A stretch of 64,000 nt of DNA from Hericium rajendrae. Taxonomy: Eukaryota > Basidiomycota > Agaricomycetes > Russulales > Hericiaceae. The stretch's first letter is position 1. The number at the start of each line of letters is the position of its first letter. Under the pieces are notes generated by a model. It searched no databases and was not told where the DNA came from. It worked only from the letters and a program-made list of their open reading frames with translations. Location: assembly GCA_033439255.1 (NCBI GenBank), contig CM065881.1, positions 2,418,001 to 2,482,000 of the forward strand, read 5' to 3'. A program made the translations under genes and the position numbers. Below are positions 4,332 to 64,000 of this stretch, piece by piece.

Positions 4332-6229
4332 TTAGCCCCTTTCGTCCCATTCAACCTGCGGCACAATTCTCTTCAGCTGTGTGACGAAGCCTCCATCCTC
4401 GGTAACCCATGCAACCCATGGCTTCTTAATAATGTATACTGTCTGAATGGCCCTGACCATTTGACGCACACCCATCTGCTCCAAGAATGCCGCGCGAAAC
4501 GAGGCTTCTGCCTCCTCGTCCAACGCGTCGATCACGAATCCTGACAGAGAAAGGCAGCGCAAATTCTAGAGGAACAAAGCACTGCCTTCCCCGTCGACGT
4601 ACATGGTCAGGGCCTTGCAGAATGCGAAAGCCTGGGACGAATTGCCGCCGAATCGGACTTCCTCGACTGCCTTGCACTGCCCCAGGGCATTGACCCACTC
4701 CTGGGGTGACTTGTTTCGCGTGCGACACCTGTAATCGAGACGGCGGATAGAATTTGTCCGGGAACTCCTACATAGGGCGGCTATGACATCCCATGGCGAG
4801 TTGTTTGGGTCCTGTGGACAGGGAAGTTCGATATTATATGCGGGATTGGTACTATCTTTCCGTGGAATATGGAACATAAAATTAGAGTCGTCTTCTACCA
4901 GCGTTAGCAATTGCAAAGGGGCCTGCACTCTGTCCAAATGCACTCGGAACAAGGTAACGAGCTCCATAGCTGATTCTGGCCCTGCGTCTTCGCTGCAATC
5001 CAAGTTTAGGCTACAAGATGGAGGGATGCTGATGCATTTGATAAGATCAGAACATCGAGTTGTTGTGTCTGCCAGCTCTAACGTCTTCAAACATGGCAAA
5101 TCCACAACGCCGGTGACAGTGCTGTTTACTGGATCTTTGGATCTAGGAGGCAGACAATTGCTTAGATGTAATGTTTCGAGGGCCGGCATTCTACGAAGCG
5201 CGTCCAGCAACCGGTGGAATGACGACATAGCAGATGCGTCGACACTTGGATTTGGCACAGACTGTCCGTCGACATCATGGAGATCGAGGCGGACCTGAAG
5301 ATGTGTCAAGTCGCAGAATCGGAGCGGACCAAGGAATGCAGACATTGGACAAATCAACGGAGCGAAGCATAGGTGTGTGATCCTGGAATGTATGTTCAGA
5401 CAGTAGCCAGACATCTGCGCCGTTAGATAAAAGGAAGTCTTGCAAAATGTTGGCCGGAGACGCCAGCATCAGCTGTAAGGTAGGCACCAAGGCGGCTGTG
5501 ACTAGTGCGAAGATATGGATGTGACGTGTGCGGGAAACATGTATCTTCGCCGTGAGTAGCTATGTTGTGATTGTTGAGCCTGATCTTGAGAGGAGCCGAT
5601 TTCCCTCGTGCAAGGATCACCGGCAGCCAGGCCTTGCTTAGGCCGGGCTCGATCATTGTCCAGAGGTGAGGATAGTGCAGGCCCGTTTGGCGCCAGTATT
5701 TGCATACGTGAGTGACCTGCATCCAACCAAGACGTGCGCCCTGAGCCACGTAAGACCTCGTCCTTGGCGGGTCCATGTCTGCATAAAACAGAAAAAAGCG
5801 GGCGAGGACCTCTGAGGGGAGCCGACAGACCGGAACTAGGGCGTTATGCTGGGTGTGCAGCGCACATATAGCCAGATGCACGGCCGCCAATTCATCTTCT
5901 ATCATCTGACGAGCGCGCGCAGCGCCATTGGGTTTGTCCAGGGAAGGCGTGTTCTGAATATGAGCAAGCCTGAGTTGAACACATCCCAACCAAAACTCCT
6001 GTGGGCTGAGTACAACGGCGTCAGACCGCGAAGGGCAGTGATAACCACATACTTCGACATTGAATGGCTTTGCATGTTTGATATCTTCAGATCGAATGCT
6101 ATATGCTCCAAATAAATCCGAACACGAGATTGGTAGACTAAGTAATGACCGGTATCTGATGCACAGCTTCAATTGCAACGAGGGGGAGAGTTGTGAAGCC
6201 AAGATGAGTGTCCTCGCGTCTGGATGCAC
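4332..6229 (-). pseudogene. F-box protein gene, broken by two frameshifts and a stop
   Basis: F-box proteins recruit substrates to SCF ubiquitin ligases; this Agaricomycete type has an N-terminal F-box and a leucine-rich tail. The F-box is seen as CRLPSEVLARFFLFYAD, followed by VCKYWRQTGLHYPHLW. Homologous text continues in three frames: to KIRLNNHNIATHGE (about 5545), then in the next frame from IHVSRTRHIHIFALVTAA to VDLSNVCIPWSAPIL (about 5310), then in the third from DLTHLQVRLDL to 4569. There an in-frame TAG (4566-4568) interrupts the junction before NLRCLSLSGFVIDA, which runs on to the stop at 4332. No GT-AG intron bridges these points. The true start is unclear; sequence upstream of about 5920 does not look conserved. 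Either a decayed gene or assembly errors. Confidence 0.7.
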
Positions 6230-7104
6230 GATGGCAGAATCTTACGAGATCAAATTATCAGGGGACATCGAGGCATGCATACCTGCTATTACGAAATCCT
6301 ACCTCTGCCAAGAATTGTGCGCGGCCTTGAGGAAGAGAAACAGGACTGGGGGAGAAGGAAAAAAGTAACAATCGCCGTCTCCGGGACTGGTGACCGTCAT
6401 GACGGACAAGTCGGGTATGGTGTACGAGAGTGCGAGTGTTCAAGCGCTCACTCGTGCTGATCAGACGCTTATTATAATAAAATCGTCTCATCTGCGACTG
6501 CCAGTGCGATATTCCGAAAAAAAAAAAAGGCAGGACACGCGGTGCTTGATCTCTAAACACTGCGTATAGAACGAACAGCCTGCAGCGCATCTATCGCGCC
6601 TTGACACTCGGCTGGATCTTCATGAAGATTACATGACCGGTTGTCTCGGGAGCATCTGTCTAGGTCTGTCTGCGCTCGAGATTGAACGACAAAACCAAGA
6701 TAATACAACCCGATGACAAGTTCGAGCTGCAACCGAACCAGCCAACAAATGACGAATATGCTCTTCAAGCTTCTCACCCATCGGCGTAAGCCTCTATCCG
6801 AGTGACACATCGCCAAGCAGAAAGGCAGAGAGCGACACCACCATCTGTCAAATAAACAAGAGGACGCAGTGTCAATCAGACGGATCGCCCGGAATGCGCG
6901 GGTCATTCCATCTTCCCGAAGCAATATACCTTCGTCAAGGAACTGGGCACCCAGAGAGAAGGGGGCAGCTGTCACCCAATGAGTTTCACACACTGACGAT
7001 CTGTCTTCAGAGGCATGGCATGCATACAAGTGGCATGGTGCATAGTATTTTGGGAAACAACAGCATCGAGATCGTAAGTGAGAAAAACAATAAAAACCAT
7101 GCGT
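6230..7104. other. intergenic, no gene seen
   Basis: 875 bp between the F-box remnant and the RPS15 stop. A 158-residue minus-strand frame at 6553-7029 has no recognisable domain and an uneven Cys/Arg-rich composition, and I do not support it as a gene. There is a 12-base A run near 6519-6530. Confidence 0.45.
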
Positions 7105-8110
7105 TTACTTGAGAGGGATGCTGCACACCAAGCAATCGTAAGCGCCTTGAAAATTCATGAAAAGAAAGAAGCACGTACAAACGAGATGCTGGATGACGGG
7201 CACGCAAGAACAGCCTGGTCAAATGGGATAGCGCGAATGACAAGATATGGTAACTTACAGTGGGTGGCACCGATCTGCATCGATCGAGGCACGAATCAGA
7301 AAGGGGCGCAGACGAGAAGAATGGAATCGACATACACCAGGGCGACCGTGCTTGACGGGCCGGTATGAAACGGAGAATTCTCCAAGGTAGTGGCCGACCA
7401 TCTCGGGCTTGATCTCAACGGAGTTGAAGACCTACGAGCGGCGGAAATATATCCATATCCATAGGACAATTCAGGAATGAAGAGGTGAGACAGCGCATGT
7501 AAAAATGCCGATCAGCACGAAACTCGGCAAAGCAGGAATGGAGACGGATAACATGAAATTCATCCACTGCGGAAATGGGCGCGGAGGGGTAGGACGCACC
7601 TTTCCATTGTAGATGCCAACGACGGAGCCGATCATCTCGGGGACGACAATCATGTCACGGAGGTGGGTCTTCACGACGGCGGGCTTCTCATTCGGGAGCG
7701 CCTCCTTCTTGGCCTTGCGCAGCTTCTTGATCAGACCCATGGGGCGGCGCTTGAGACCGCGCTGGAACCGACGGCGGGCGCGTGCGTGGACGATCTAAGT
7801 GTAACCGACCCCTCAGCAAATGCAATTTACGCTAAGGCGCTTGGATATGCATACCTCGAGGAACTTAAAAATCCTACGATCAGAATCTAGTGCATATGCA
7901 AAACGGATTACCACGCACCTCCTCGTTACCCATGTCAAGGAGCTTGTCGAGCTCAACACCCCGGTAAGAGAACGTGCGGAACGTTCTCTTCTTCTTCAGG
8001 TCGGCAGCAACTTGCGGGTCGGTCACGGATGAATCAGCCTAGCCAATGACGCCCAATCAGTCTCCGCTACCCAATGCGCATCGGACGCCGCCAGTAGCAG
8101 CACTCACCAT
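7105..8110 (-). CDS. rps15: 40S ribosomal protein uS19 (S15)
   Basis: Small-subunit ribosomal protein uS19, placed at the head of the 40S subunit. It is a 154-residue protein assembled from eight segments: 8108-8110 (ATG only), 7919-8038, 7855-7863, 7600-7794, 7336-7431, 7259-7274, 7179-7188 and 7105-7120. They sum to 465 nt with no stop. Family signatures are [64 protein letters not shown] and the terminal THSSRFIPLK. Three internal exons of 9, 16 and 10 nt are needed to recover invariant residues. Every intron has GT-AG ends. It is divergently paired with the P2 gene. Confidence 0.95.
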
Positions 8111-8982: not shown

Positions 8983-11900
8983 ACGTCTGGTCGTTTCTGT
9001 AGTCATGTATCGCATAGGCATTCATGCTGCACGCAAAATGTATTTTTTGCACGTTTGAACACTGCATTCTGTATCGCGACTGAGCTTCGCGTGTGCACGG
9101 CTTGCGTAGTGCCTACGATTCCGGTCACTATGCCACCATTCGTGCATTCTATACTGGAACCGTATCGCAGCGAGAGCTTAGGCTGAGGACCTCCCAGCAC
9201 TCGCGAATCGACCATCTGCAGGTCAGCGGAACGAGCCTCGGGGCCTTCTAACTTTAAACTTAGTGGTCAGACCCTCAGTGTCGTAGGCCGCGCAAAAGGC
9301 GCCATTCAGCCGGTATACGTGCGAAATGCCGTCGGCGGGTCAAGCTTGTCGCAGACTTCGAAGTTGCAAGGAGAGTCTGGTGCGCTCTGGAAGGCCGAAC
9401 AGGGACGGTATTCCAGGGTATTCTAAGCCTACACATTCGCGACTGCGGTGCGGGGGCGGCATGATGCATGACGCGGGGCCGCAGCATCACAGGTCCGAAG
9501 CATGTATGACGACGACGCTATTTCACGGGTCAGACTTCCTGTCAGCTTCAATGTTGTCGCCGCGGCAAGGAAAGCCGATGCATGAAACGAGATATCGATG
9601 CACGGAGGCCCGGGCGGGTTTGCTTTGAGCTTCGTATGCTGCATGACGCGGGGCTGCTCCGAGTGATATTCAAGACCCGGAGGACCCATGATGATGTTCA
9701 TCAGTCAAATGAGACCTGACACAAAGGGCGGTTGTTAGAAGTTCAAGTGCACGAGTAAACCAGTAAACGAGTACACGATGTCCAACACGGTCATGAACCT
9801 ACTTTTTATGGCATCACTCACAGCACAGCCAACGAAACCTGAATTGATATGGCAGCTCAAATGTTCAACATTTACCTCAGCCTGAACCCGACAATGATCT
9901 GAACGCAAAATACTTATATACGTATCCCCAACTTAAAAGACATCATCATAATGACGACGTCGAGCCGGATAGATGTTGCCAACCAGCAATGTCGATCTGC
10001 GGCTTCGTAACATCGATGTTATTGAAAAAAGGCCGCCGCAAAGCCAGGCGAGAATGAGAAAATCTAGGATGTGGCTTGGAAGGATTTCATACTAGGTGCA
10101 GGGAACCGCCAGCTCCGGTCCGCCGTCCAGTACTCAATGAACACGAGTTTGCGCGTGCGCCACGCCGTACAGCATGTTCAACCAAGCGGAGCGAAGAATG
10201 CGTTCGAGAGGGTCTAGAAAGTGCACGGTTCAGAAGATGCGCGGCCGCTGCCCGCCGCGCCGCAAAGCCACGCGAGTAAGGATAACCATTCCCGCTCGAC
10301 AGAAATGGAAGCGGGAGATGGAGGCGCAACTGAGCATGTCCGCCGCTCACATCGCGACGATCGAAACATGATCGGGGGCGACATTGCCATAGTCACGACG
10401 TCGCAGATCGCGTCGCGCTGCCCGATCGCCCCGATGCCTAGAATGTCTGTTGTCGAGATACTTATAAGTACCTGGGGCGTGGCAAATGGAGGATCGTTCG
10501 TGCCGTGCTATGCTGCACACGCAGTTAGACATGTGCAGCCTGGTGAGACCCATGTGCTAGACGGCGCTACTTAGCAAGCAGAAGCAGGCTGCTGACTGGT
10601 GGACTCACGACGGGGATCGGAAACCCGGCGGGGTCGCGGCGGCGCGAAGCGTCGGCATGTGCAGTTCAGACTCGGATGCACGGAAGCGTGATGTCGACAG
10701 TCGAGGTTGGCACTGGATTTTGAGCGAGCTTCATCCAGGCCTCCGAGGTGCAGCCGCCACCGCCAGCGAGCATAAGACCTACTCATGTGCATACAAGTTG
10801 GAAAGTAAACCAGGAGCCCGCCGCCGTCGGTCGGCGTTGATCACAGCTGTGTATAAGTCCGAGGCGCAATCGCGCAGGAAAATCTGGTCTTGCCACGCGA
10901 GCGACGATCTCGCAAAGCGGGCAGGGCAAGGCATCGACGATCCTCGGAGCGGGCTATGCTGCGTGTCGCGAGGCGCTCGGAGCGAGTTCCCGTTTCCAAA
11001 GTCCAGGTCGGACGCAGAGCCTGGGCCTGCGACGTTTATGGGCTTAAGTCCGAGGGGAGCAGTCAATGGGCATGGCGCACGGCAGCGGCTCGGGGGTAAT
11101 TGCTTGTGCATCTTGGAAGGCGGAAGAGCAGAATAGAACTGAGAAGCGGACGGCGCAAGCGACATTCGATCGTGGGGGTGGGGTGGGATGAGAAAGGAAT
11201 TGGGGAACCCAGAGAGTCTGGATATGAAGCTGCAAGGTGTGAAAGAGAACGTGCGATGAGAGCTTGATCGACGTCAGGAAAGCTTGTTTGAATGGAGTTA
11301 TGCACAGTTGAAACGAGGTGTACTCGAAACAAGGCGGTGCTGAATTTGAAGTAGAAATAACGTAGACTTTGTTTGAAGACGTTACGAAATGCTGCTGAAC
11401 GCAGGGTTCATATATAGGGCGTTGCCTGCCGTTGTTGTGGACACAGCTGAGGACGACGTCATGACATTCTGTTCATGGCAATCGGACATCTGGCCGTGCA
11501 CGGGGTGCCGGCAGTGGACCGGCGGCAAAGGAGAACCGTCGGCGGGTCCATTTTTAGCGTGATGGATGAAGCCGGCGGATGCGGACAAGGCACGGTGCGG
11601 CTTATGTCTGCGTCCACTGCGGCGGCCGCGTGCGCGGACCCCAAGATCTGTATCGCGATTACCCCGGCGGAGGACCACTGAGTCGGCTGCTGTTATCGGC
11701 GACCTGGGAGTTTGGAAGGACGCATGCGATGTGGACGGTGAGAACATGGGCCGTGAGGTCAGGGAAAAGGAAAACGGAGGACGGAGAGGAGCGAGCGAGA
11801 CGCGCGGAAGCAGACACGGCAATTCAGATGTCTTGGCTGCATTCAACCCGACTCCCTAACCGAACCCCAATTTCAAATCAAATATACTCCTCCATTTCTT

Positions 11901-19395: not shown

Positions 19396-19405
19396 TACTG
19401 TGTGA

Positions 19406-28914: not shown

Positions 28915-30054
28915 CTAGTCGTCGCCGAGAATCTCCTTCAATCCTGCGGTGGCAAATCTTAGCGGATGCAACCCTCCAAACACTGCCGACTTACTATCAA
29001 TGATATTAAGATATGCCGTGGTCGCAGGGCTATCTGGGTATTCGTCCAGGAAACTGACGCCGTAATCTGCACTCTTCCCTATCCGCGGGTCAAGCGGCAC
29101 TGAGCCCAGCAACTCTACATCCATGTCGTGGGCCAGCTTCTTCGCTCCACCTGTCGTAGGCCTGAAGATCTGTGACTCTGTCTTGCATCCAGGACACACG
29201 AAGCCGGCCATGTTCTCGACGACGCCGAGCACCTTGATCCCGACCTTCCTGCAGAAGTCTATCTCACGGCGGACGTCCTTGCAGAGCGACCTCCTGCGGC
29301 GTGGTGATAACTACTGCGCCATCGATACCGCTCTCCTTGAGATACTGGACGATGCTGAGGTGCTCATCTGACGTCCCTGGAGGTGTGTCGATGAGCAGAT
29401 AATCGAGGGTGCCCCAGTCGACATCCTTGAGGAACTGGCCGATTAAACCGTTTTCTTGGGTCCGCGCCACATGACCGCGTCCTTGGAAGAAGGCAGCATG
29501 AAGCCGACGGACATAACTCCGAGATTATCTTGCACGTAGACTGGTGACCAGCCTGACGAGGACGAATGGACCTGCTCAGAAGCGATCCCGAGGATAGTCG
29601 GGATCGAAGGGCCGCAGATATCTACATCCATTATCCCAGTCTAGCCATCGTGATCAGAAATGTCAAAGACAAAAGATACGGCCCCATAGAACCAACCTGT
29701 AAATCATCATCCGCAGCAAATGCCCACCCCAGTTGCGCGGTGAAGGTAGATTTGCCGACACCACCTTTTCCGGAGAGCACGAGGATCTTCCTCTTCACGC
29801 TCGCCATCCGCTCACGAATGAATGGCAGAGCAGGATCAGGGCCCTTTGGCTTCTGCGATGCACATATATCCTGATTTGCGCATCCGTCGCACGCCGCAGA
29901 CTTGCCTGCTAGCTCTGATTCGGTACCCTGCAAAGAGCAAATCAAGATTCCGTCAGTACTGAATATTCTAAAGACGTACTGGACAGTGTTCGGGTGCGTT
30001 CTCTGGTACCGCCGATGGATTTGGGACCTCCGTTGGCTGTTGTACAGCAAGCAT
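28915..30054 (-). CDS. nbp35: cytosolic Fe-S assembly scaffold NBP35, two frame breaks
   Basis: P-loop ATPase scaffold that, with Cfd1, assembles 4Fe-4S clusters in the cytosol. Exons are 29980-30054, 29697-29927 and 28915-29640. The N-terminal cluster ligands follow CX13CX2CX5C (Cys 24, 38, 41, 47). Walker A is [34 protein letters not shown] and the C-terminal CPGC in [11 protein letters not shown] are all present. Within exon 3 the conserved text changes frame twice. After WRGPKK, a run of four T (29451-29454 on the plus strand) is one short of what the family residues need. After PQEVALQ (about 29277) there is one base too many before DVRREIDFC. The two offsets cancel in length, but the middle segment is conserved only in the shifted frame. 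Orthologues are essential, so sequencing error is likely. Confidence 0.88.
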
Positions 30055-36521: not shown

Positions 36522-38883
36522 TCACTGCTTCCAGCATCCAGGTCCAAAACCCCTAGGTCCGAGTGCCTTGTCCACGACGTGCATCATTGCGATCACCTTT
36601 TCCTCCTCCCACTTCTTGCCAACAACCTGCACCGCGACAGGAAGCCCCTTCATCTTCTCCGCATCATAAAGACCCTTGCCATACAGCTCGTTCTCCCATA
36701 TCTGTGAGCCATGCCCAGGGTCATTGCGCCATTTGTCGGTGATTTGGTCTAGCTTCGGGTCCACGCGAGTGACAGGTATGATACCCACAGGGCTGTCAAC
36801 AACGTTGTACAGAAAAGTTGATACGGCAAGACATGATAGTGCAGTACAACCCCTATCACTGCCTGTCAACGTGAGATTAGCGGAGGAGATGGAGCGAACA
36901 CAGACCCATGAGGTAGTGCCGGCGAGGCTTGCACCGGTGCAATTATTCCGTCAAACCCATGTTTTCTCCACACCTTGTCCTGCGTCAATGTGCGAAACCA
37001 TGACAATGACTAAGGACTCCCACCTCTTTTATCCAGGAGTGCTTGTATTCGTCTCTCTTTGCCACGTACTCGAAATATTCTTTGACTGATTTAGTCCTCG
37101 AATGGTCAAACATCGAGGCAAAGATTTGGTCCCCGACCACGGAGTTGGCCACCCATTTTGAAAGCCAGCGAAGAAACCCTGAGCATAGATCAGGATTACA
37201 TTTCGACGGTTAAAGGAAGGGACTGTTCCGCACCGGGCAGTCTAGGGCCCAAAGTGGTCAAGAACAAGTTCGATTCCTACCCGAATTCAGCACAACAGTC
37301 GGCGAGACAATGATAGTCACTTACTACAGGATCGGGTCCAAGGTGCGATAGCAGGGTCTTGAAACCATCCGCCGAGGCCAAGCCAACGAAGATATGCAAG
37401 CATGTAAGGACTATGCACGGGATCAGGCTTACGATTCTGTACCGCTGGCTTGAACTCACTGTCGGGGACTGTAAATTCGATGCACTCATGCCCTTCTCGC
37501 CGCAGAGCTTCTACTGTCTCGAGAACTGCTCGCTCACAGGCAGGCGATGTCTTGATAAATCCATCTGACCGGCTATGAGGTTGATCGTATAAGATTCGAT
37601 CCAGGCGAGGAACGAACCGTAGGTATAATAGCCGAAGGTGAGTTTCTCCGGTAGTTCAACCTCGCGGTACGGAATGGGCGCAGGGAAGTAACTGACATCC
37701 TCCTGTCCGAATAACAGCCTTGACGCGATCTCAACGTCATCAACAGAACTGAACACAACGGCACTCTTTGATTCAGAAACCGAAGAGAAGCTTATAATAG
37801 GGATCACCCACCGTCCCATAGGCCCCGTTACGCTATGAATGGCCTCCCCACAATTCGGATCTGCAACCGGCAAAACAACACTCCACCGTTGAAGAGCGTC
37901 TCGCAATTCTGTCGCGGGACCACGAACCTCGAATCCCTTCGTGGGTAATTCTGCCGAACCCAGGCTTCAACGAGTACACGCCGCAATAGGACGCGGGGAT
38001 GCGCAAGCTCCCGCCGATGTCGGATCCAAAGCCCAGTGCGGAGCCGTCCATCGCCAGGAGCGCAGCCTCGCCGCCGGACGACCCGCCGCAGGTGTGCGCG
38101 TCGCTGTAGGGATTGGTCGAGACGCCCCAGATGGGATTGGCGCACTCGAACGCGAGCATCGTTTGCGGGACGTTGGTCTTCACGAAAGGGATTGCACCGG
38201 CTGCGCGGAGTTGGTGGACGAGCTACCGAAGACCGCGGAGGTGAGTATGAGCGGTAGCCCGAGCGTGATATGTCGAGGAAGGGGGACGCACCGGCGCGTC
38301 CTCGTTGGCTGGCTGATGAGCGTATCGCGAAAAGCCAATGGTAGTATCCACACCTTTGATATTGACTATGACGAACATTGAGTGAGCATAAGGGTCGAGC
38401 GCGTTGGCAAGAGCACGTACACATATCCTTGATGCTTACTGGGACACCGTGCAACGGACCTTTTATCTTGCCAGTCACACCGAACTCCTTGTCAAGGAGC
38501 TCTGCATCCTTACGCGCCTCCTCGAAGAGAACTAGCAATATGGACGTCAGATCTAACCTCGCCGCGTCGCGATGCACTCACCTTCCGTGATGCAATTCAT
38601 CTTGGTCTGAGCCTGAGCAGTCCGCGCGATGTACGCCTCCAAGACACGCGACGCGGTCCATTCTCCTGCTCCGATCCGCTTGACAATCTCCCCAGCTGAA
38701 TTTCCAACCAAAATCACTAGTCAGTGGACTCAGAATCTGGCATCCAAGTTACATACCAGATGCATTCAGAAAGATTTGGTGTTCCTCAGGCACGAACTTC
38801 TTCGCCGAGACGAGTTCGGCATCGCGTTCCGCGCGTTTCGCTTTAGCGATCGAGGCCGTCGTGGACGAGGAAGAGAACCACAT
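36522..38883 (-). CDS. amidase signature enzyme
   Basis: Hydrolyses a carboxylic or fatty-acid amide; substrate not determined. Thirteen exons can be phased with no frame break. The N-terminus is MWFSSSSTTASIAKAKRAER and the start codon is at 38881-38883. The amidase catalytic triad is visible: Lys in GVPVSIKDM, Ser in CGGSSGGEAALL and Ser in GSDIGGSLRIPA. Later conserved blocks are IHSVTGPMGRSVDD, DIFVGL-like LHIFVGLASADGF, LGPRLPGFL and FDGIIAPVQASPALPHG. The C-terminus is RGFGPGCWKQ. Closest in style to fungal general amidase/FAAH-like enzymes. A long run through the segment near 37833-38183 in one frame is misleading, because two introns lie in it. No signal peptide. Confidence 0.88.
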
Positions 38884-39459: not shown

Positions 39460-41698
<2,239 letters not shown>

Positions 41699-42130: not shown

Positions 42131-42769
42131 ATGCCCCACCATCACCATCACCCCCGTCGCCCCCATCCTCAGGCCCACGCCGAGTTCTACCCTTACTATC
42201 AGGCGTATGCCTTCTATCGCCCCAGACGTCGCGTCTTCATCCTCGGCTTCGGTTTGGGAGCCTTCGTCTCATATGCCATCATGAAGAACAGAGAACAGCA
42301 CGGAATTGTCGCCGGCACCCCTCATCCATACTCTCGCATGGTTTACGACGAGAATGGCCGACCGTCCACAACTGGAGTCGCGGGCGGATGTCATCCCGCT
42401 GACAGGTGGGGATGGAATTGGAGACAAGGTGTGAGGGAGCGTCCTGCAAATCCGAGCGCACAAGCCCCGGGGCTTGACGGAGATCGGGTACGAGGACTCG
42501 TGCGTCAGGTATGTTGTTCATAGTAACCCCTTTGCATCTGTGACTTAGCAGGCACAAGGTCGATGAGTTTTCCGAAGCCGCACTCGATTCCACCATTGAG
42601 AACCTGCAGAGTCTGAAGCATGTGAGTTCGCACAGCATACATGGTGTGCTGGATGCTGACGAAATTTCAGCGCATGAACGAACATCGCGCTCGATTCCAT
42701 CAACAGCAGCAGCAGCAACCGACGCAGCAAGCTCCTCGAGTAGAGAAGGAATCTGAGCGTTTGGTTTGA
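42131..42769 (+). CDS. hypothetical single-pass membrane protein, one inserted base
   Basis: About 181 residues from exons 42131-42508, 42552-42621 and 42671-42769. It starts with a His/Pro-rich segment and has one hydrophobic span (VFILGFGLGAFVSYAIM, residues about 36-52). A helical C-terminal region follows, with DEFSEAALDSTIENLQSLKHR, and a poly-Gln run. Exon 1 ends in frame only if one base is removed from the CCCCGGGG run at about 42467-42474. Then the text continues PGLTEIGYED into the next exon. Without that it would stop soon after the intron. Small proteins of this layout occur in other basidiomycetes as unknowns. Confidence 0.6.
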
Positions 42770-44421: not shown

Positions 44422-45328
44422 ATGGATCTTCAAATTCCATCGCAAGCCTGTCACTTTTGCCTTCGCGTCATTAAGAGCAGTGAAGATGGCCAACTTCGCA
44501 GATGCAAGGCTTGTAGGTGAGGCTTGTCTGTTTCTTCCGTTTTTCTGTGTCGCAGATATGAGTTCAGGGATGCACTCTACTGCTCGAAGGAATGTCAAGT
44601 CAAGGCATGGAAACAAGAACACAAAATCACCTGCGGAGAGATGGCACATCTGCGCGAGCTGAGTGCAAAGGGCTCTAAGTGGGCTGCGTACACGCTTAAC
44701 CTCTATTCGTCGATGAACATCACACCCCTGCAGAAGGATCTTAATGCTTGGATCTGGAGATGGAACGCTCACTTTGCGGAAGTCGCGGTGTTCGCGTTGG
44801 ACTTGGGCCGTCATCCTGAGCGGATAACGACGCACAGGTACGTCCCATCTTATTGAGAACCGTGGTTTGAGCTAAATGGCTTCAGTGTTTTTATTCTTGT
44901 CGAAGCACAGACTAGATCAGCATCCAAGATCTCCATTGAGGTTTCAAGTCCGTTTTAAGTGATTTTTGTACTACTATCATATTTGTTCTGATAAGACTTT
45001 GAATATCGTAGGTCAAAGAGGGCAAAATCATCACTCTCTTTGATAATGATCATACCGAAGAGGAATTGCGTGATTACTTATATCCTGGATCCCGCGACGA
45101 TCGGAAGCAGCACGACCAAGATGGAACGAGGTTCGTACGAATGAACATCGCGTTCGACGGATTGTTCCGCTTCGAATGGTTCCGTTGCAATCCTGACACG
45201 TTGAAAGGAGCAAGTCCGGAACTATATGACTGGGTTCAAAACATTGGGTGGAATTGCTGAAAGGTTTGATCTCGGAGGCGAAACCCGAGCAAGTACGAGC
45301 AGCTATTGCAAAAAATAGCGCAAAATAG
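44422..45328 (+). CDS. MYND-finger protein 2, one-base deletion near the end
   Basis: Paralogue of the genes at 43078 and 46532. Exons are 44422-44516, 44556-44837, 44887-44941 and 45012-45328. The finger is CHFC, CKAC, YCSKECQ and HKITC. The next block, VAVFALDLGRHPERI, matches VALDLVNHP in MYND 1. Read literally, the protein stops at 45260 after NIGWNC. One more A in the run at 45238-45241 restores HWVELLKGLISEAKPEQ and a stop at 45328, giving 249 residues. That agrees with MYND 1 (250) and MYND 3 (241). Confidence 0.75.
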
Positions 45329-45660
45329 TGGCGGCTCTATACACTTCAGACGTAGAAGTCACTAATATGAGATACTTCTTCTTGTGTTTTCTCTCTTTCT
45401 GATAGCTCGTTGAGGAGACCGTTCATTCCTGCCGTCTGTACGTACAATGTATGGCCATAGGATGCTTGGATGTATCGCAAGCATTTCGATGCCAAACGAC
45501 CTACCCTAAACATATTTAGCTCGCTGAAAAATGAGGATCTGAAAAAAAAAATGATGATTCAGAAATGAGTCCATCGAACGGAACGAGGCCATTGTCATGC
45601 GTCAAGTAGCTTGTTTTTTCTCCAGGCTTGTCTAAGAAAGCGAATCTATCGGGTTACCTA

Positions 45661-45702
45661 GTCTACATCAAAGTTAGGGGGTTTGGCTGGTGGCCTCCCT
45701 TC
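45661..45702 (+). repeat. left terminal inverted repeat
   Basis: Reverse complement of 46311-46352 with four mismatches. Confidence 0.75.
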
Positions 45703-46310
45703 GACCTAATCCGGTAGCCAATTTGTAAGCTTATCGAAAAATCTGAGTGACTTGCGTCAGCACGACTTGTCAGATGGTCAGATTGGTAGAGTAAATCGCG
45801 TCATCCCACTAGCCACGTCCGGAGGAGGTGCCAATCATGATGTGATTTATATATGGGGGGGGAAAATAATAAGGATCGATAGCCAAGTCGTTATAATGGC
45901 CGTTTTGGTAATTTTTTTTTCGCTCAAGCGTTCGAGCCTCGTACTTTGCCCTTTGTGTTCGAAACCAGAGAGGGCTAAAATCATTTTATGAAATTTTGAG
46001 GCTGTATAGGAGGTCTTTTCGGCCGCTCTCAATGTCTGCAGCATGCTATAGCCTTCGCACAAAATGTGGCAGGTGCAAAAAAGGTGCAAAAGCACCATAC
46101 ACCATTTCGCCAGGCAGCATAACCGCTGTACTAACTAGACATTGGAAGTTACGTCGATGGCATTATCTTGAGCACCTAGGGTCCATCCCGGTTACCGCGA
46201 GTTCCTTTCCTGCTAAGGCACAGCTGCCAAATCGGTCGAGATGGTCAGCGTGCTGACATATTGTGGCGCATCGCCGTCTGGAGAGAGAGCATATTTGATC
46301 CGAGATCCCC

Positions 46311-46352
46311 GAAGGGAGGCTGTCAGCCAAACCCCCTAACTTTGATGCAGAC
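46311..46352 (-). repeat. right terminal inverted repeat
   Basis: Partner of 45661-45702. Confidence 0.75.
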
Positions 46353-46531: not shown

Positions 46532-47452
46532 ATGTCCTCTATCATTTCTCGTCCTGATCATTGCAGTTTCTGCTACGTAGAGTGTGGGGCGGCGAAGCTG
46601 CGGAGGTGTGCAGTGTGCAGGTATGTCTTGACGCGCGTTATCCAGCCAACCTACCATCCGTTTTTTTTCCCACCCGTGTCTTACATTGACGCATCCGCAA
46701 GAAATGTCCGGTACTGCTCAAAAGAGTGCCAAGTAAAAGCATGGAAATCGCACAAAGGCGCATGCCAACGCGCGAAGATCGACAGAGAGCTGCGCGAGCA
46801 GGGCCTGCTCCCCGAAGGAGCGGACACCTCGCTCGGTGTGCAGTCCGCCCTTCACCAGGACATGCAACGATGGCTCGCTATATGGAAGCCGGTGCTCTAT
46901 GAATATGGCATTCTGGCGCTGGACTTGGTCAATGACCGAAAATGCACTGCAACTCGCAAGTGCGTTCACTTTCTCAATTTCTCTTTGAAACAAGCTAATG
47001 ACGTACCTCTGCCTCAATTCAGCGTCCTACTTTTCGCCGAGAGGAGGCAGGATGCACCGACTCCAGCTCAGACCTTCAGGGTATGGATTCGCCGTTAATG
47101 TCGTATCATCTGGCCCATGATTCTGAGCAGATCCTCGATGGTACCGTCACGAGCACCGATGAGATGGTGGAGGTTATGCAAGACATCGGCATGGCCGCAG
47201 ACGCCATCGAGATTTGTGCGTGATCGGCATAACCGCATCCCTGACGCAATCCGGGTCATTATCATCTGCGGAGCGCTGTTCCGTGTTGTCCTCTTCGGGA
47301 CGTCAGATGCGGACCTGAACGAGATAGGCTCGGAGCGCTCTCGGAGCAGCGCACAGACTTGGAAGCCTGCGCTCACATCCTTGGTGGAAAAGGGTGAACC
47401 CACATCAAAGTGGACGATCACGCAGAACACTACGAAATCGAATCGTTTCTGA
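46532..47452 (+). CDS. MYND-finger protein 3, one frame break
   Basis: Third member of the local MYND family. Exons are 46532-46620, 46702-46959, 47023-47080 and 47131-47452. The finger is CSFC, CAVC, YCSKECQ and HKGAC, followed by YGILALDLVND. In exon 4 the frame from ILDGTVTSTDEM to DAIEI changes at about 47206-47212 into RFVRDRHNRIPDAIRVIIICG. Removing one base there gives 241 residues, close to its paralogues; literally, translation stops at about 47224. The C-terminal half diverges from MYND 1 and 2 more than the finger does. Confidence 0.7.
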
Positions 47453-47871: not shown

Positions 47872-50281
47872 ATGACTATCCCAACGCTCTCAGAGAAGGC
47901 GGCAATTCTGCCTTCGACGAACCCGACGCCGGCATGGGTCAAGCCGCGGCCGCAGAGTCGGAAGAGGGACCTGATGTACATGGGCTTGATGGTCCTGACT
48001 TCGGTCTATTTCTTCAAGAACCTCGCCGCTGGACACTTCTCGGACAGCTCGGACTCTCCCTTGGCTGGGCCAGTCGGGAGCTCGGACTCATTGTGTCCTC
48101 AAGCTGACGCTCGTTATCCTGAAGCCAATTCAGAGCTATGGAAGGTGTTGGGAGGGACGTTCAAGACGGATGAGTTTAAGAAGAGGGCAATCGACTGGTT
48201 GGGAGGAGCAGTCAGAGTCCCGTACGTGTCATATTCACTGTCATTTGAAGTCGCGCAGACTTACATTCTTGTTTCGCCTTTCAGGACCGAGTCCAAAGAC
48301 CGGCCGGGACCAGTCGGAGAGGATCCCCACTGGGAGGTCTTCATTCCTTTCCATAACTACCTTTTGAAGGCGTTCCCACTTGTGTGCGTCTCGTTCAGAA
48401 GACGTAGGATATCAGACTGTCCTAACCACGCCGTCACAGGCATTCAACGCTTGTCCTGACTAAAGTCAACACCTATGGGCTTGTCTATCATTGGACGGGT
48501 ACCGATGAATCGCTGAAGCCGCTTCTGCTCGCTGCTCATCAAGGTGAGTTTATACATGATGTCCTTGCCGTCAAAGCTAACGCAATCTCACTACTACATT
48601 CTAGATGTCGTACCTGTGAATCCTGAAACCTACGACAAATGGACATTTCCCACCATTCTCGGGTCATTATGACGGTGAGTTCAACGGTGAGTCCGCTGTA
48701 AGCCCGCCTAATTAGTTACAACTAGGCGAGCGTCTCTGGGGCAGAGGAAGCTCTGACGATAAAAGCGGTCTTATTGGCACATTGTAAGTGCGCTTGCGTG
48801 TTCGTCCAAGCTTTATTGACGCGTTTGCATGTCACAGATCGTCTGTCGAGTCTCTCTTGGAGAAGGGCTTCAAGCCGACACGTCCTATTGTACTTGCGTT
48901 CGGCTTCGACGAGGAGACGAGTGGTGTCCACGTATGGAGTTTCTTAGTCTACCGCAGGTTCATTTAATTCATCTCACAGGGAGCCCAAGAAATAGGCAAA
49001 TACCTTTTGTCGAATTATGGTGAAGGCGCATTCGCCTTGGTGGTTGACGAGGGTGGTAAGTAATAAGATAGTATCATGTTCCTAGCTCATCCCGAGGTCT
49101 TGCAGGTGGATTCAGTATCAAGCACGGATCTGTCTTCGCGGACGTTGGTGTGGGTGAGAAGGGATACATTGATACTCGTATCGAAGTTACGTCTCCCGGT
49201 GGGCATTCCAGCACGCCGCCACCGCACACTGTGTTCAGTTCTCTGCACTGTTTGACTACTTCTAAGCCCGAATACAGAGCATCGGCATCCTTGCACAGCT
49301 CCTCGTTCATTTTGAAGCAAACCCTATCAAATCACACTTAGAGCGCGCGACACCGGTGTACGGAACTGTGCAATGCTATGCGGCGCATGCCAAAGAGTTC
49401 CCCTCTAGTCTCCGCACGATTTCTGAAGAAATCTGTCTCCTCCGATAAGGCTCTCAAGAAGGCAGAGAAGGAGCTCTTCGAAATTGACAGTGCGATCAAA
49501 ACCCTCGCGGGCACGACACAAGCCATCGATTTAATCCAGGGTGGTGTTAAGACAATGCACTGCCTGAACAGGCCTGGGCCGTTGTCAATCACAGGATTGC
49601 CACTCAGAGGTATGTCAATGCTCGTAGGCTGGCCGCGGCTCGCGGAACTGACTGGCTCACTTTCATTCAGTTCGATCGCGGCGGTCCAGGAGCGCGACAC
49701 CAATCTGTTGAAGTCGCTTTCGGAGCAGTTCAACTTGACTTACAAGGCATTCGGATCCACTGTCTCCCCCGAAGATGTGCCTGCGTTCGGCACGCTCACA
49801 CTCTCGGACGCATGGGGTACTGCTCTTCGGCCTGCTCCTATCTCTCCTACGGACCCGGATGCTGTTCCCTTCAGGATCTTGAGTGAGACTATCAAGGCCA
49901 CATACAACAGTCTGCGTGGGTTGGACGGTGGTGATAACATCATTGTCCACCCTGGCATCATGAGTGGCAATACTGGTATGTACATTGTTAACTTTTCTCG
50001 TGTAAAGGGCTCGCTATACTAATATGCAATGTGATAGACACACGTTATTACTGGAATCTACAGAGCATATCTTCCGCTATAACCACCACAACAGTGGTAC
50101 CGGCGAGGCTTTGAGCAACGGTGTACATACGGTCAATGAATGTGCGTTGTACCTCCGATAACCTCATGTTTCCCTCACGAGCTAACATGCATCGACAGTC
50201 ATCCGCATGGTGGACTTTGTTGAAATGATTCAATTCTTCACAACACTGATTTTGAACGTGGACGAGGCTACAGACCTATAA
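47872..50281 (+). CDS. M20 peptidase, carboxypeptidase S-like, four frame breaks
   Basis: Zinc-dependent vacuolar-type carboxypeptidase family. Twelve exons run from 47872-48221 to 50199-50281. An N-terminal signal anchor (YMGLMVLTSVYFF, about residues 32-44) suggests a type II vacuolar protein. Metal-site text is present: AAHQDVVPV, WGRGSSDDKSG, FGFDEETSG, VVDEGGG and a C-terminal GVHTVNEF. Conserved text changes frame four times: an extra base before PFSGHYDG (about 48651), an extra T before LKKSVSSDK (49420-49422), a missing A before NALPEQAW (about 49554) and a missing base before TEHIFRY (about 50059). Once these are allowed for, the length is 1800 nt (599 residues). Four breaks in one gene make decay plausible, while conserved splice sites argue for a recent event or assembly error. 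Confidence 0.78.
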
Positions 50282-54057: not shown

Positions 54058-56479
54058 CTACAGCAGGGTCGTCTCGTCCGCATTCAGAATGAGTTTCGTA
54101 AAGAAGCGAAGCTCTGTGATCATGCTCCGTGCACGCACGGCTGTGGTAACGAAAGAAGCGAGTTAATCCCTCCAGCAGCATGGCCGGATCTGAGAATCAC
54201 GTACCCTCGTTTACAGTATGGGCCCGTTCTTCATGTCTTCATTGTCCCTGTGCGTGTAGCGGAAGATGTGCCGGGTCAGGTTCCAATACCAACGCGTATC
54301 TATTCAGGTCTGTCAGGAGCGCTATAGCTGGAGCGCTTTTGATGCCTACCGGTGTTCCCTATTATCGTCAAAGCCTCATTATCAGCCTTCAATATTACAC
54401 GTGCGACAGAAATAACGTACCAGTGGCGAGAGAAGGAATAACAACTGCATCATATCCGTGGCTTTCACCATGTACGGTCGCTTTGATTGTGCCGCTCAAC
54501 AGTTTCCAGGGCCCGCTGTCATGGGTCGGAGTAATGGGCGAAGGTTCAATCGCAGTGTCCCACGCATCCGACAGAATAAGTTCGCCGGCGCTTTCAGACG
54601 CCGTATCTGCAGCTTGGCCGAACGCGTTGACCGAAAGATTGAATAAAGTTGCAACCGGTGTCAGGAGGTCCGTGATGTATTCTTGCAGCGCCCCAACAGA
54701 GCTTTCAATGGTCACAGAAGAGTGCATTCAGTTTCAACACAGGGCAAAGAGACGAATATCGCACATACCTGTGCTCGGCGATGCGGTGATTGACTACAGC
54801 CGCGGCGCTTTCGGGCAGCGCGTTCACTTTGACGCCGCCCGAAATTAAGTCCACAGCCTGCGTTGTGCCAAGCAGCGCAGCTGCATAGGGATTCCACGCT
54901 ACAAGAGCGTCTCGCAGATGTTCAAGGGCATGATCGTCGGTCACAGCGCTGAAAGCAAGACGCCGGAGCTCGGACGGAAAGGCTGTGGAGTATGTCGCTA
55001 GACAGAGCATGCTGCGGAATGGGGTTGAGGAACGGGGTAAGCTCCCATCATGCGGATGGGCTTCAACCTCGTTGATCAGTGCAGCAAGAATACCGATGCT
55101 CTGATAGAAAGATGAGCACCAAACGTAGATGAGCGCAAGACACGATGCATACGGTGTGTGCCGGTGGCACGCTTGAGTGGCCACCGGGCGTGTTGACCTC
55201 TACACGCACATCGAGGTAGCCCTTCTCCGACACGTCTGGTGTGGCGAGAACGATGCCTCCCTTCTCCTGGGTTGTATAACCCGCTGGACAAGAGAAGCGG
55301 TCAGTCTTACATGGAAGTCAACAGACTGGCGCTCCAGTACGTACAGCCTTCGTCGACTATAATGGCGAAGCCGTCACGGCCATACGTGCTCTCGAGGTAG
55401 ACGATAAGGTGTCCTGCTCCCTGCACACACCGTCAGCGGGCGATTATCGCTAGCATATGCACAAGGGTAAGCGCACCTCAAGAGAAGAAGCTTCCTCGTC
55501 GATACCATAGGCAAATACAACGGTCCTCTTCGGTTTGAAGCCATTACGGAGAAGGGCATCTACCGTCACACTGAAAGCACAACGTTGGCGAGCGTTCAAA
55601 ATTTTTTCACGGGAACCAACACTCACAGTTGGGCTACCAGGGAACCCTTGTCATCGGCCGTGCCACGTCCCCATATCCACGTGCCATCATAGTAGCCTGA
55701 GTAAGGCGGCTGTTCCCACTTGTCCACGGTTAGAGGCTCGACGGGAACGACGTCTTGGTTTCCGGCTCAGCAACGAGACATCAATGGGGAACAGAGAATA
55801 GCTTGCCTTGATGAGCGGTAAGCAAGATTGGTTTCAACGTCTCATCGGACCCTTGCCAGTGTAGCACAATGTTGTATGTGTTTACTTTCGTAACATTCAG
55901 CTGTTCAAAGCTAAACAAATTTATTCAGAGCAGCCCGTATGGCAAAGATACGAAGCTTTCGTACACGGTGGGAAAGGTCTTCTCCAGATACGAATGCAGA
56001 TCGGCAAATACATCCCAACGACGATCATCTCCGACTGCGCGGAGGTCGTCATAAGACTCTGTACTGTGGCTCTCATTACAAATGGTGCAAGTGAAAATGT
56101 CGAAGCAAGTAGGAAACACGCACGGCACGCGGATGGCACCACCCAAAGCCTCGAAGGCTTGCAGCTGAAATGATTCCTCTGAGTAGAGCATGTCGAGCTG
56201 GTCGTTCAAATCCGCATGAATACTGGGGGAAACGGACGCTGGCTGAGGGCAAAGACTAGAGTTCTCCTGCGGGAGTAGAGGGTATTGACTGAGATTCGAA
56301 ACTTGCTGCAGCTGATTGCCCGTAGCCAACTGTCTTATCCACCGAGTATATGGAAAATACAGAAGGGCCACGATAACCAAGAATGCGAGTCCCGTGTGCG
56401 AGATAAACAAAGAAATACCACAATGTCGCTTTGGTTGTCCAATGGACAGCAGAATACCGCCGTCCTTGCTGCTTGCCAT
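54058..56479 (-). CDS. M20 peptidase, carboxypeptidase S-like (second copy)
   Basis: Paralogue of the gene at 47872, inverted. Eleven exons: 56124-56479, 55952-56063, 55807-55900, 55627-55753, 55477-55570, 55345-55420, 55153-55283, 54769-55100, 54421-54701, 54205-54299 and 54058-54140. A membrane anchor (LAFLVIVALLYFPYT, about residues 29-43) is followed by the lumenal peptidase. Metal and catalytic text is LTAHQDVVPVE, WGRGTADDKGS, YGIDEEAS, IVDEG and HTVNE. Intron 3 uses a GC donor (gcaagc, plus-strand 55801-55806), where the paralogue has gtgagt at the same place. One base is missing in the GGGCCC at about 54221-54226, just before HTVNE. With it the protein has 593 residues and ends LILNADETTLL, like its paralogue. 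The catalytic domain itself is unbroken. Confidence 0.85.
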
Positions 56480-56755
56480 AGTGCTTATGACAACTTGACG
56501 ACGACCATCAACGACTCCAACAATAATCGTGGCGGAGCACGCGAGATAAGATCCACCAGCCAATCGGAGGCCGCCCTGATTCTGACGTAACCTTTTCCTT
56601 ATCCGATGAACCTCCTCGCGGGTACCCGCACAGTCACTGCTTCAACAAGGTCAAAAACACCTCTTTGCAGGCCATATACCCTTTCCTGCACTTCAAACGT
56701 ATCTAAGGTGCGAGTCTATGTCAAAAGAGAAGAACACGCTTGATAATGATATAAA
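56480..56755. promoter_or_regulatory. divergent promoter, M20 copy 2 / Zap1-like factor
   Basis: 276 bp between outward start codons. ACCTT at 56590-56594 and AAGGT at 56647-56651 and 56704-56708 are half-sites of the yeast zinc-responsive element, but no full palindrome is present. tgatataaa just before the ATG at 56756 is AT-rich. Confidence 0.4.
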
Positions 56756-58741: not shown

Positions 58742-58912
58742 TTATGGCGTGGCTGATGAGGTATTTATCCTTTTATACCACGATACAGGAACTAGACAGA
58801 ACAGTGTCGATATGGTATGGTAGTGGAGAAGATGTAGGCTTGCGACCAGTAAAAATACAGAACAATGTGTGTGGAGATCGTACTATGGATACAAAAGACG
58901 GACAAACGGAAG

Positions 58913-60532: not shown

Positions 60533-61289
60533 ATGGCTCCTTCAAAACAGGGAAAGACGGCGGAGAAGGGAGGGAAGAAAGAGAAGGTCTTCCATCCAGA
60601 GTCTCGAAAAGCCGGGCAGCTCGCCCGCACTTCGCTTCGCCAAACCAAGCTGCGGGAACAGGCGTCCAAACGGTGGAAGAAACATTCAGCGCATGGTACG
60701 TTGCTTTTTCTCGTACCTTGGATACGTATCGATGTTTTTATAGTCAACATGTTCGGCTTCTGGTACCACGCGTTACCGGAGGAAGGCGTCCTTACTCTTG
60801 AAGAAATACATGCATTGATTCGCGATGTGTGGCTCGCTCGGTACGATTCAGAAATTGAGGAAGAAAAGGCTGCGAGGAGAAAAGGCAGGCCGAAGAGCAC
60901 GAAGGAGCAAAAGCTGGAGGAGATTAAGCGGAGGGAGGCAGAGGAGTACCGCGCCGGCATGGGTACGTCTCTAGCGCTACCTTCTGAGCGAACGGATACA
61001 AACCTGAACTGCTGCAGATGTCCTTGATCTGACGCATCCGGACAATGTGGCACTTTTCCGGAACTGGGACCAGATCGAGGTCGCATATCCCCAAATGCTG
61101 CGGTTCATCCGGATAACGAGCGAAAAACCAGATGTTATAATCTCATCTCGATCAGGTCAACACCCTCTTTTGAAGGAGAAGCCCATCACGGAAGACCAGG
61201 CGATGGATGTTGTTCCTTCCGCACCACTCGCTTCCGAACCAGTAGAGCGTTTCTCTAGTACGATGATGGCCATGGATATGCCGGTTTAG
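60533..61289 (+). CDS. tma16: translation machinery-associated protein 16 (TMA16)
   Basis: Ribosome-biogenesis factor associated with pre-60S particles. A 217-residue protein from exons 60533-60695, 60744-60962 and 61018-61289. It starts with a Lys-rich MAPSKQGKTAEKGGKKEK, then KVFHPESRKAGQLAR, which is the family opening. Other family-type blocks are MFGFWYHALPE, LEEIHALIRDVWLARYDSE and RNWDQIEVAYPQMLRFIRI. It is convergent with the kinase gene, 133 bp apart. Confidence 0.85.
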
Positions 61290-61422
61290 TCTATTATTCT
61301 GGTCTATGATGTCTATGGGGTAACATATAGTTTGTGTCATAACAGTGTGCTGATAAGCGTGTTCCATACCCCAATGTCCATCGAATGGTACTGATATTAT
61401 AGAATGTCCCAGGTCCCCTCAT

Positions 61423-64000
61423 CTATACATACAGTAGATCTGCAAAATTGTCATCATCAGTCAACGCAGGGCTTGAAGCGAGCAGCGGGATCTGCGGTGC
61501 GTCGAGATCCCAATCTCTCTTGAGGCGGTTGTAGACAAGCTTGAAACTGGATAACGCGCCCTTCTCCTGCATCAGTTGCAGTTCCGTCTGGTAGCCTGCA
61601 ACCGAGTGCGCGGATGTCGCCTCGCGGATCTCCACGCGGAATCGGACCGCCTTTACGACACCCATGACGCCTGCTGGGTCTGCCAGTTCATCCATCTTGC
61701 ATTTCAGCACACCCAGGCTTTCAGCATGCGTCAACACGACACGCACGCCAATGTTGTTGAGTAACCGCCGGCACTCTTCGCGGGATGCGTGTGCATCATG
61801 GATGGATAGCAGGCTGAAGGTAGCAGGCTTGATCTTAAACAGGTTTCCGAACCACGCTGGCGAAAGCGGGGACGCTGCTGATGATGCCCCAAATGCTGCC
61901 GGGGATGTTGCACCGTGTGCGATACTCTTCTTGCGACGGAGCTTTGCGCGCTCGTCTTCCGAAGGCTCAACGATCTGTACCCGTCTGTTGCCCAGAGCTG
62001 CTCTGCGGCCCCCGCCTTTCCGCTTCAAAGATGACTTCCGTATCGTCCCACCGTCGATCTCGCCGCCTTCTGCTTGCACGTCGTACAGTGCGTTCTCTTT
62101 ATCCAAGTCCAGAGGCGAGGGCCGATGCAAAGTCCGACGGATACTCAAAGGCTTCGTCGCCGTGCCATTTTCAGATACAGCTGCCTGGTTCAAAATGCCG
62201 AGGTCATCTACAGCCCGCCTCGGATTGCCCGTCGCATGTGTCAGTGCAGTGACTGGGTCGCCAGTATCCGGTAGGCCAGCAGGCATCATCGCAAGGTTTG
62301 GTGACATGAGCGGGCTGCCTGCAGCAACGGCCCGAAGCTGCATGACGTTCAGGTGTTCCACGATCTGATGGAAGAACTGCTGGACCTTCTCATCCTGCAT
62401 CTCTGGGATGTCCGGAGGCGACATATTCAGAGCGCCCCAGATGGGAGAAGCCGGAGAGAGCGGTGACACGGGAGACATCAGGCCTGTAGGCGTTGGAGGA
62501 AAATTAGGAGACATGGGCGACGGAGAGGCGCCGCCATAGGTTGGCGAGTAGAAATTCTGGGGCGTGAGGAGAGCCTGCGGAGAGATCGCCCGCGTGGCTT
62601 CGGGGACGTATTTGACAGAAATGGACTGTTGATCACCCGCTGTGCTCTTCTGAGGCGTCGGAGGCTCGACGCGGAGGAACGCACGGTCCACGGCAGACGG
62701 CCCATCTTTCCTCTTCCGTCTTCTGGACACCTCACGAAGCATCTCCTGCTGCTGCTCGTCGTACTCTTCCATTCGCCTTGTCCGGTATAGGAGCAATAAG
62801 TGGTACACGCCCTTCTCCCAATTATGGTCGTCACTGATCAGCCTGCTGACGATCACGTCGTCAGCAACGCCATGCCAGAGGGTACGGAGATTTGCAAAGA
62901 TATCTCGGTCTATCACAGCTTTGCTGGCAAGTGGGCGAGCGATTTCATCGAGGCTCGGCGGCGCATGCTTGCCTGCCTTCGGCGGTTGAGAGGTGTAAAA
63001 CGGATGCTTCAGGATCTCGGATATAGATATCCTCTTCGCGACGTCCTTCTCCAGCATCTTGAAGATAAGGTCCTGCGCCCGAGCGTCGACATTTGCTGGC
63101 ATGACAAATTTGCCGACCTTCACTTTTTCGAGTAGGGTGTGCAGGTCTTCATCGTCGAACGGCAGTCGCCCAGCGAGCAGAGCAAACAAGATCACGCCGC
63201 AAGACCAGATATCAGACTTCGAGCCGTCATAAGCCAAGCCTTCGATGACCTCCGGCGCGGCGTAGTGAGGACTGCCGCAGGCTGTCTGGAGCAAACCGTC
63301 ACTGTTGGTCATCTGCCACGCCGCCATACCAAAGTCTGCAACCTTGATGTTCTTGTCACGGTCCAAGAGTAGGTTCTCCGGCTTCAGATCGCGGTGCGCG
63401 ATGTTAAACAGATGGCAGTAGTCGATTGCTGAGATGATTTGCTGAAAGTATCCCAGAGCTTCCGATGGCGAGAGACGCCCTTTGGTGCAGAGATAGTCAA
63501 AAAGCTCCCCGCCTTCGACATATTCCAGAATGAGGTAGAGCTCGGTCGATGTCTCCCAGACGTCGTAGAGCCGCATGATGTTAGGGTGGTCTATGAGCTT
63601 CATAATGACGATCTCTCTCTCGATGCCCAAGAGGATACGCTCGGCTTGCTCGTCAAGGCCATGGATCGACATTCGAGAGTTGATCAGAGCAACTTTCGAG
63701 ACGATCTTGACCGCGGCGTATTGACCAGTTTTCGCATGGCGGCAATGCGTACGCGGCCTTGCATTATAGGTTAAAGAGGCGGACTCATTCCTGCGAGTGT
63801 GTTTCTCACCTGAACTGCCCTTGCCTATCGTTCTCCCAATCTTCCAGAGGCCGATGACCTTTGGATCATCGCCTTTTCTGCCTTTCGCGGTAACCTGGGT
63901 ATGTCTGTGTCCGCCATTTAGTATGTGTATAGTTGAGTTAGTTTGTGGTGTAGGGTAGATAAACGTCGAGCGGCTGGCGATGGAGGGCGGGTAGACACTC
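61423..64000 (-). CDS. Gin4/Hsl1-type Ser/Thr kinase (5' partial), one-base deletion
   Basis: SNF1-related morphogenesis kinase of the Nim1/Gin4/Hsl1 group, expected to act at septins and on Swe1/Wee1. Exons seen are 63965-64000 (running off the window), 63810-63904 and 61423-63757. The kinase starts LWKIGRTIGKGSSGRVRIA, then HAKTGQYAAVKIVSK, HRDLKPENLLLD, ADFGMAAW and CGSPHYAAPEVI. A long Ser/Pro-rich middle follows. The C-terminus has a KA1-like fold (FRVEIREATSAHS, LMQEKGALSSFKLVYNRL) that usually binds membranes. Just after GRVRIA the frame shifts; one more base in the GG at 63741-63742 (plus strand) gives the family text ARHAKTG and a consistent exon phase. That break lies in the ATP-binding lobe, so an assembly error is likely. 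Confidence 0.87.
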   Translation of the reverse strand, partial: SVYPPSIASRSTFIYPTPQTNSTIHILNGGHRHTQVTAKGRKGDDPKVIGLWKIGRTIGKGSSGEKHTRRNESASLTYNARPRTHCRHAKTGQYAAVKIVSKVALINSRMSIHGLDEQAERILLGIEREIVIMKLIDHPNIMRLYDVWETSTELYLILEYVEGGELFDYLCTKGRLSPSEALGYFQQIISAIDYCHLFNIAHRDLKPENLLLDRDKNIKVADFGMAAWQMTNSDGLLQTACGSPHYAAPEVIEGLAYDGSKSDIWSCGVILFALLAGRLPFDDEDLHTLLEKVKVGKFVMPANVDARAQDLIFKMLEKDVAKRISISEILKHPFYTSQPPKAGKHAPPSLDEIARPLASKAVIDRDIFANLRTLWHGVADDVIVSRLISDDHNWEKGVYHLLLLYRTRRMEEYDEQQQEMLREVSRRRKRKDGPSAVDRAFLRVEPPTPQKSTAGDQQSISVKYVPEATRAISPQALLTPQNFYSPTYGGASPSPMSPNFPPTPTGLMSPVSPLSPASPIWGALNMSPPDIPEMQDEKVQQFFHQIVEHLNVMQLRAVAAGSPLMSPNLAMMPAGLPDTGDPVTALTHATGNPRRAVDDLGILNQAAVSENGTATKPLSIRRTLHRPSPLDLDKENALYDVQAEGGEIDGGTIRKSSLKRKGGGRRAALGNRRVQIVEPSEDERAKLRRKKSIAHGATSPAAFGASSAASPLSPAWFGNLFKIKPATFSLLSIHDAHASREECRRLLNNIGVRVVLTHAESLGVLKCKMDELADPAGVMGVVKAVRFRVEIREATSAHSVAGYQTELQLMQEKGALSSFKLVYNRLKRDWDLDAPQIPLLASSPALTDDDNFADLLYV

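Follow-up and report, generated by a model that had tools for sequence, protein, structure and literature searches.

False frameshifts have been described for assemblies made from noisy long reads, where short indels in the consensus break reading frames and are tied to uneven polishing of the two haplotypes (PMC8081667). Nanopore indels occur mostly in homopolymers (PMC6441652), and gene decay in pseudogenes also leaves offset frames. We describe here a series of frame breaks in a 64,000-nucleotide stretch of contig C4 (C4:2418001-2482000, the window) from the assembly of Hericium rajendrae strain NPCB A08. They resemble the frameshifts of PMC8081667 in being short consensus indels, but their sites fit heterozygous synonymous positions at which both alternative bases or neither have been kept, and nothing of this kind is stated in the parts of that paper covered. 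One-base changes are common to these breaks and to errors in homopolymer length, but most of the breaks here are in short runs and many of them are extra bases. Compared with pseudogenes, there are almost no stops among the calls of a gene model and the proteins are otherwise conserved where they were aligned. The breaks are almost certainly an artefact of the assembly and do not belong to the organism, and they probably arose as consensus indels at heterozygous synonymous sites when the two genomes of a dikaryon were collapsed into one. The phenomenon is a property of the assembly rather than of the window, and as biology it is most likely not a real feature. Among the literature titles and abstract openings listed we found nothing on frame breaks in this assembly, or on indels at synonymous sites that keep both alleles or neither.

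The sequence-only reading of the window had listed fourteen one-base breaks in nine genes (Table 1), and as an observation this was largely right. Frames, introns and sequence were read around the named genes, and the read-through proteins, with an X at each break, were aligned to the sequences of solved structures. Thirteen breaks were located, over 32.4 kb of coding sequence. Seven are anchored by an aligned relative: two in NBP35, one in the Gin4/HSL1-type kinase, three in M20 copy 1 and one in M20 copy 2. The other six are placed by open frames only, which abut, and are found in the U2AF-like gene, in MYND 2, in MYND 3, in M20 copy 1 near 49434 and twice in the F-box-like gene. The MYND 3 break proved to be one of two bases instead of one, and the break claimed for the membrane protein cannot be judged. 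The two breaks of NBP35 are of opposite sign, and both are spanned by an alignment to CFD1 (6g2g) in which a single residue faces each X. HSL1 aligns without gaps across the break of the kinase, and its residue at that point is the one expected from the two bases that are there.

Like breaks were also found elsewhere in the genome (46,767,965 bases in 19 contigs, the contig C1 having 5,307,752). A genome profile search was made with ten Pfam families, using the best candidates only (for DEAD the best 35 of 116), and neighbouring hits were scored by a script. This survey covered 140 genes and 28,288 profile positions with 195 joins, of which 177 were intron-sized, nine were frame breaks with no intron and four were unclear. 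Two of the nine are the NBP35 breaks of the window and three are in two decayed-looking copies of an eRF3-like gene. The remaining four joins hold five breaks, two in CFD1 and one each in CCT-epsilon, CCT-delta and an Ssb-type HSP70, on C1, C5 and C7. With the decayed-looking copies left out, the survey has five breaks over some 84 kb of conserved coding sequence. At C1:695-697 kb a nested hit that was considered as a break has introns instead, and another nested hit, at C6:1342 kb, is provisionally read as an intron. Outside the survey, seven breaks with a seemingly recognisable protein were looked at closely and six of them were used. Beside the window there are like breaks in SF3B1 and in a carnitine acyltransferase, and in three further genes, of which we take one to encode a 26S proteasome ATPase and the others to be Arp8-like and RhoGEF-like. 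On C1 there is another, in a gene to which no name was given. In the carnitine acyltransferase a structure match has a one-residue gap near the break, and the first break of this gene was not counted, being of unclear size. The core genes that are hit (NBP35, CCT, HSP70 and SF3B1) are otherwise intact in the alignments. The earlier proposal that residual assembly indels are the cause is supported by the breaks in core genes on several chromosomes, and by the excess of indels over stops given below. Its restriction to parts of the contig is too narrow, since core genes of C1, C5 and C7 have like breaks, and so do genes beside the window.

The source of the assembly is of importance here. NPCB A08 is a dikaryon with a heterozygosity of 3.61%, and its R9.4 nanopore reads were assembled with NECAT, followed by two rounds of Racon, two rounds of Pilon and, last, purge_haplotigs, so that polishing preceded the removal of haplotigs; the BUSCO score is 91.6%, as compared to 96.4% and 97.5% in two relatives (PMC10608310). 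The read correction of NECAT uses a FALCON-sense consensus (PMC7782737). In the Ras and DEAD searches, neighbouring hits proved to be duplicated between C16 and the end of C5. The stretches C5:3331200-3333700 and C16:741100-743600 carry the same genes in two versions, with an identity of 95.1% over 2,484 bases. These are a surviving allelic pair, so that C16 contains sequence of the second nucleus in one stretch at least. Both the published figure and this pair agree with the strong heterozygosity that a merging of alleles requires. Of 47 modelled coding differences between the two versions, 44 are in third positions, two in first and one in a second position, and the sole coding gap is of three bases. 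An error tied to a heterozygous site would, because of this distribution, nearly always hit a third position. Moreover, 9.6% of the third positions differ, so about one in ten of them would have two bases at a collapsed locus. Two other stretches on two contigs, C7:3100800-3102300 and C12:913100-914600, are 99.8% identical (3 mismatches in 1457 bases), and hits with equal DEAD scores are found at C7:2197119 and C12:2142298; the near-identical stretches of C7 and C12 are either a recent duplication or a misassembly.

The explanation by merged alleles starts from what was directly observed, that is the breaks, the source and method of the assembly, the spread over chromosomes, the rare stops, the third-position fit and the divergence of the allelic pair. 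The two nuclei would differ at a few percent of their coding bases, nearly all of them synonymous third positions. In a contig that collapses the reads of the two nuclei, the consensus at such a site may sometimes have kept both alternative bases or neither, and the frame would then be shifted by one base. FALCON-sense votes on insertions and deletions, so that a site with two alleles can be doubled or lost, and the default of Pilon asks for a majority, which neither allele has. Polishing with short reads would therefore leave such a site as it is, the reads of each nucleus backing a different repair and about half of them supporting each. We infer this action of the correction programs at two-allele sites. 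For the NBP35 gene, the 5 kb around it are single copy in the genome search, and no residual allele was found for that 5 kb. In a like search with 39.0-50.3 kb of the window (11.3 kb), the matches listed were dominated by a short repeat and did not include the window itself.

To see how the breaks fit this explanation we used a set of 22 located breaks from the window and elsewhere. The first carnitine acyltransferase break, MYND 3, the three eRF3-like offsets, the membrane protein and M20 copy 2 (located later) were left out. Fourteen of the breaks are one base short and eight one base long, and every one of the 22 is readable as a codon that lacks its third base or that has two different synonymous bases in this place, which is partly so by construction. 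An aligned residue of a relative is available at 14 breaks, and it agrees with the third-position reading in nine. These are the first break of NBP35, the kinase, SF3B1, CCT-epsilon, HSP70, three breaks of M20 copy 1 (against copy 2) and a proteasome motif, the residue of which is assumed by us. When the residue is known, random insertions fit the third position in 46% and deletions in 51% of cases, but deletions in runs of at least two bases do so in 78%.

There are several points that weigh against the merging of alleles. The probability of nine agreements in nine under random indels is about 0.002 by multiplication, or 0.004 without the proteasome case, but it is only about 0.03 if deletions fall in runs, and the value is flattered by the fact that the nine cases were counted because their residue agreed. 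At five breaks the relative has another residue, namely at the second of NBP35, CCT-delta, both of CFD1 and the carnitine acyltransferase; at CCT-delta and one of the CFD1 breaks the residues are similar hydrophobic ones. With no residue prescribed, a third position accommodates random insertions in 77-82% of trials and deletions by construction, and this form of the test has little power. Several deletions could just as well have come from the shortening of a run, three of them being in runs of 4, 4 and 6 bases. The allelic divergence comes from one pair of 2.5 kb, and the presumed heterozygosity of the break sites is read from the assembly sequence only.

The main rival is a failure of polishing, and it too would make the breaks an artefact. 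Plain residual nanopore consensus error may have survived the polishing, for example where reads were drawn to a haplotig that was later removed by purge_haplotigs, an explanation we regard as possible though rather unlikely. The use of R9.4 reads and the polishing before purge_haplotigs (PMC10608310) speak in its favour, and the Vertebrate Genomes Project found frameshifts in a haplotype left unpolished, the reads having gone to the other haplotype (PMC8081667). Three of the 22 breaks are in runs of at least four bases, as plain error would allow, and one of these is in a run of at least five (a run of six), but 19 are in runs of at most three, and the eight extra bases also speak against it. 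Raw R9.4 consensus error is unlike such a pattern of short runs and many extra bases. Three of 22 in runs of at least four is no clear excess over the approximately 5% at a random coding site, and the concentration in long runs that belongs to errors in homopolymer length was not found; a few breaks do sit in short homopolymers, as had been claimed for several. Plain error would also make the third-position fit a coincidence of modest size.

Real decay, in which some of the genes are pseudogenes or null alleles in one nucleus, is very unlikely as the general cause. Pseudogenes would show nonsense codons and multi-base indels beside the one-base indels. An ab initio gene model that allows frame shifts and read-through stops at equal cost, trained on 304 kb and used mainly at a penalty of -5, called 31 insertions, 31 deletions and one stop over 264 kb of C4, that is 62 indels to one stop, these being model calls and not a count gene by gene. 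Changes planted in the sequence were recovered for 213 of 240 deletions and 206 of 240 insertions (86-89%, the indels having been placed well inside clean exons), and for 96 of 240 stops, which implies that the scarcity of stop calls is not blindness of the model. The sole stop call, at 11824 within the window, is in a doubtful gene model. The counts serve to relate indels to stops and to compare the window with its flanks, and for nothing else; a high penalty makes the model explain breaks by false introns, and some of its calls may be false. By these calls the window, where 32.8 kb of coding sequence hold 11 events including the stop, is no richer than the flanks with 52 in 104.8 kb, but the comparison is rough because at penalty -5 the model finds only three, perhaps four, of the 13 located breaks of the window. 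Apart from the ratio, the breaks in otherwise intact core genes and the three-base gap of the allelic pair also speak against decay.

Decay does exist in the genome. The two eRF3-like copies, at C4:17326-17918 and C4:54556-55042 (17.8 and 54.6 kb) near the end of C4, have offsets of what seem to be four, one and five bases when compared with the expected protein. Unlike the other breaks, these look like real decay. The F-box-like and MYND genes have no relative for comparison, and the earlier suggestion of possible real decay in accessory genes may hold for them and for the membrane protein. It is not supported for M20 copy 1, since this gene is otherwise open and is in phase at the traced introns.

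It is also highly improbable that the phase changes are due to short or unusual introns that were misread. This did happen in the window: in M20 copy 2 a GC-AG intron at about 55754-55804 restores the phase and removes one suspected break, and in M20 copy 1 an alternative acceptor keeps the phase. However, in the four clearest breaks of the survey (NBP35, CCT and HSP70) the frames overlap or abut. There are -1 to +1 extra bases between the frames at these joins, and an intron would need at least about 40. Furthermore, relatives align across the junctions with one residue, and 177 of the 195 joins of the survey are of intron size. It is even harder to believe that many breaks exist in the organism as heterozygous one-base null alleles, which one nucleus carries and the other shelters; if true, a wild dikaryon would carry a very large recessive load in core genes. 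Programmed ribosomal frameshifting is extremely unlikely, as nothing was found for it beyond the breaks themselves, which are of both signs in unrelated genes, occur twice in some of them, and have no common motif by eye in the 22 contexts.

The published gene set of this edible mushroom depends on the assembly, and it has 93,499 exons with a mean length of 182.74 bases (PMC10608310). At a break rate between about 0.06 per kb (survey) and 0.4 per kb (window), the exons together would contain some 1,000 to 7,000 false breaks. Claims of gene loss, pseudogenes or missing core genes that are made from this assembly thus need care. If the merging of alleles is the true cause, it would provide a signature that could be recognised in other dikaryon assemblies produced by such a procedure.

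Table 1. Genes of the window for which frame breaks were reported, in window positions, with the breaks as read here.
Gene	Position	Strand	Frame break	Basis and Pfam family
F-box-like gene	4566..6241	-	near 5521 and 5316, each one base too many	open frames
NBP35-type P-loop ATPase	28915..29907	-	near 29454 one base short, near 29281 one base too many	
U2AF large-subunit-like gene	39460..41410	-	near 40894 one base too many	open frames; RRM_1 downstream
Small predicted membrane protein	42131..42769	+	claimed break cannot be judged	
MYND 2	44430..45345	+	near 45237 one base short	open frames; zf-MYND
MYND 3	46532..47452	+	near 46937 two bases short	neighbouring MYND genes; zf-MYND
M20 peptidase copy 1	47872..50160	+	near 48649 and 49434 one base too many, near 49549 and 50058 one base short	
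M20 peptidase copy 2	54200..56500	-	near 54220 one base short	read against copy 1; M20_dimer
Gin4/HSL1-type kinase	61426..63900	-	near 63743 one base short, just past an intron	Pkinase, Fungal_KA1

Some of the names in Table 1 are less certain than others. The F-box label is weak, with a Pfam score of 17.7 bits, under the cut-off of 24.3, and U2AF is a tentative name. For the membrane protein the Pfam search gave no family, and only the loosest setting of the gene model gives an insertion, at 42478. In M20 copy 1, three of the four breaks are anchored against copy 2, and one of these three is also supported by a significant match to 7uoi. A second structure match, across a further break, is not significant, and this break is anchored on copy 2. 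Pfam gave no family for the one piece of M20 copy 1 that was submitted.

It had also been claimed that the genes between 7 and 28 kb show no breaks. No located break is found there, but the gene model has calls in this gap, at penalty -5 two weak deletions and one stop, to which a penalty of -4 adds three weak calls. Given 13 located breaks, the probability of such a gap is about 0.01-0.02, for a gap that was chosen post hoc. The list of breaks may be incomplete, as offsets absent from it were called by the gene model alone near 1296 and at 37575 and 38284. In MYND 3 there is an additional weak call of the model at 47083. Between MYND 2 and MYND 3 it was possible to observe two inverted repeats, 45661-45703 and 46310-46352, which are 43 bases long, 91% complementary and 606 bases apart. 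They are likely to belong to a small inverted-repeat transposon, and the right arm with its surroundings matches short stretches on many contigs (39/40 among the matches listed).

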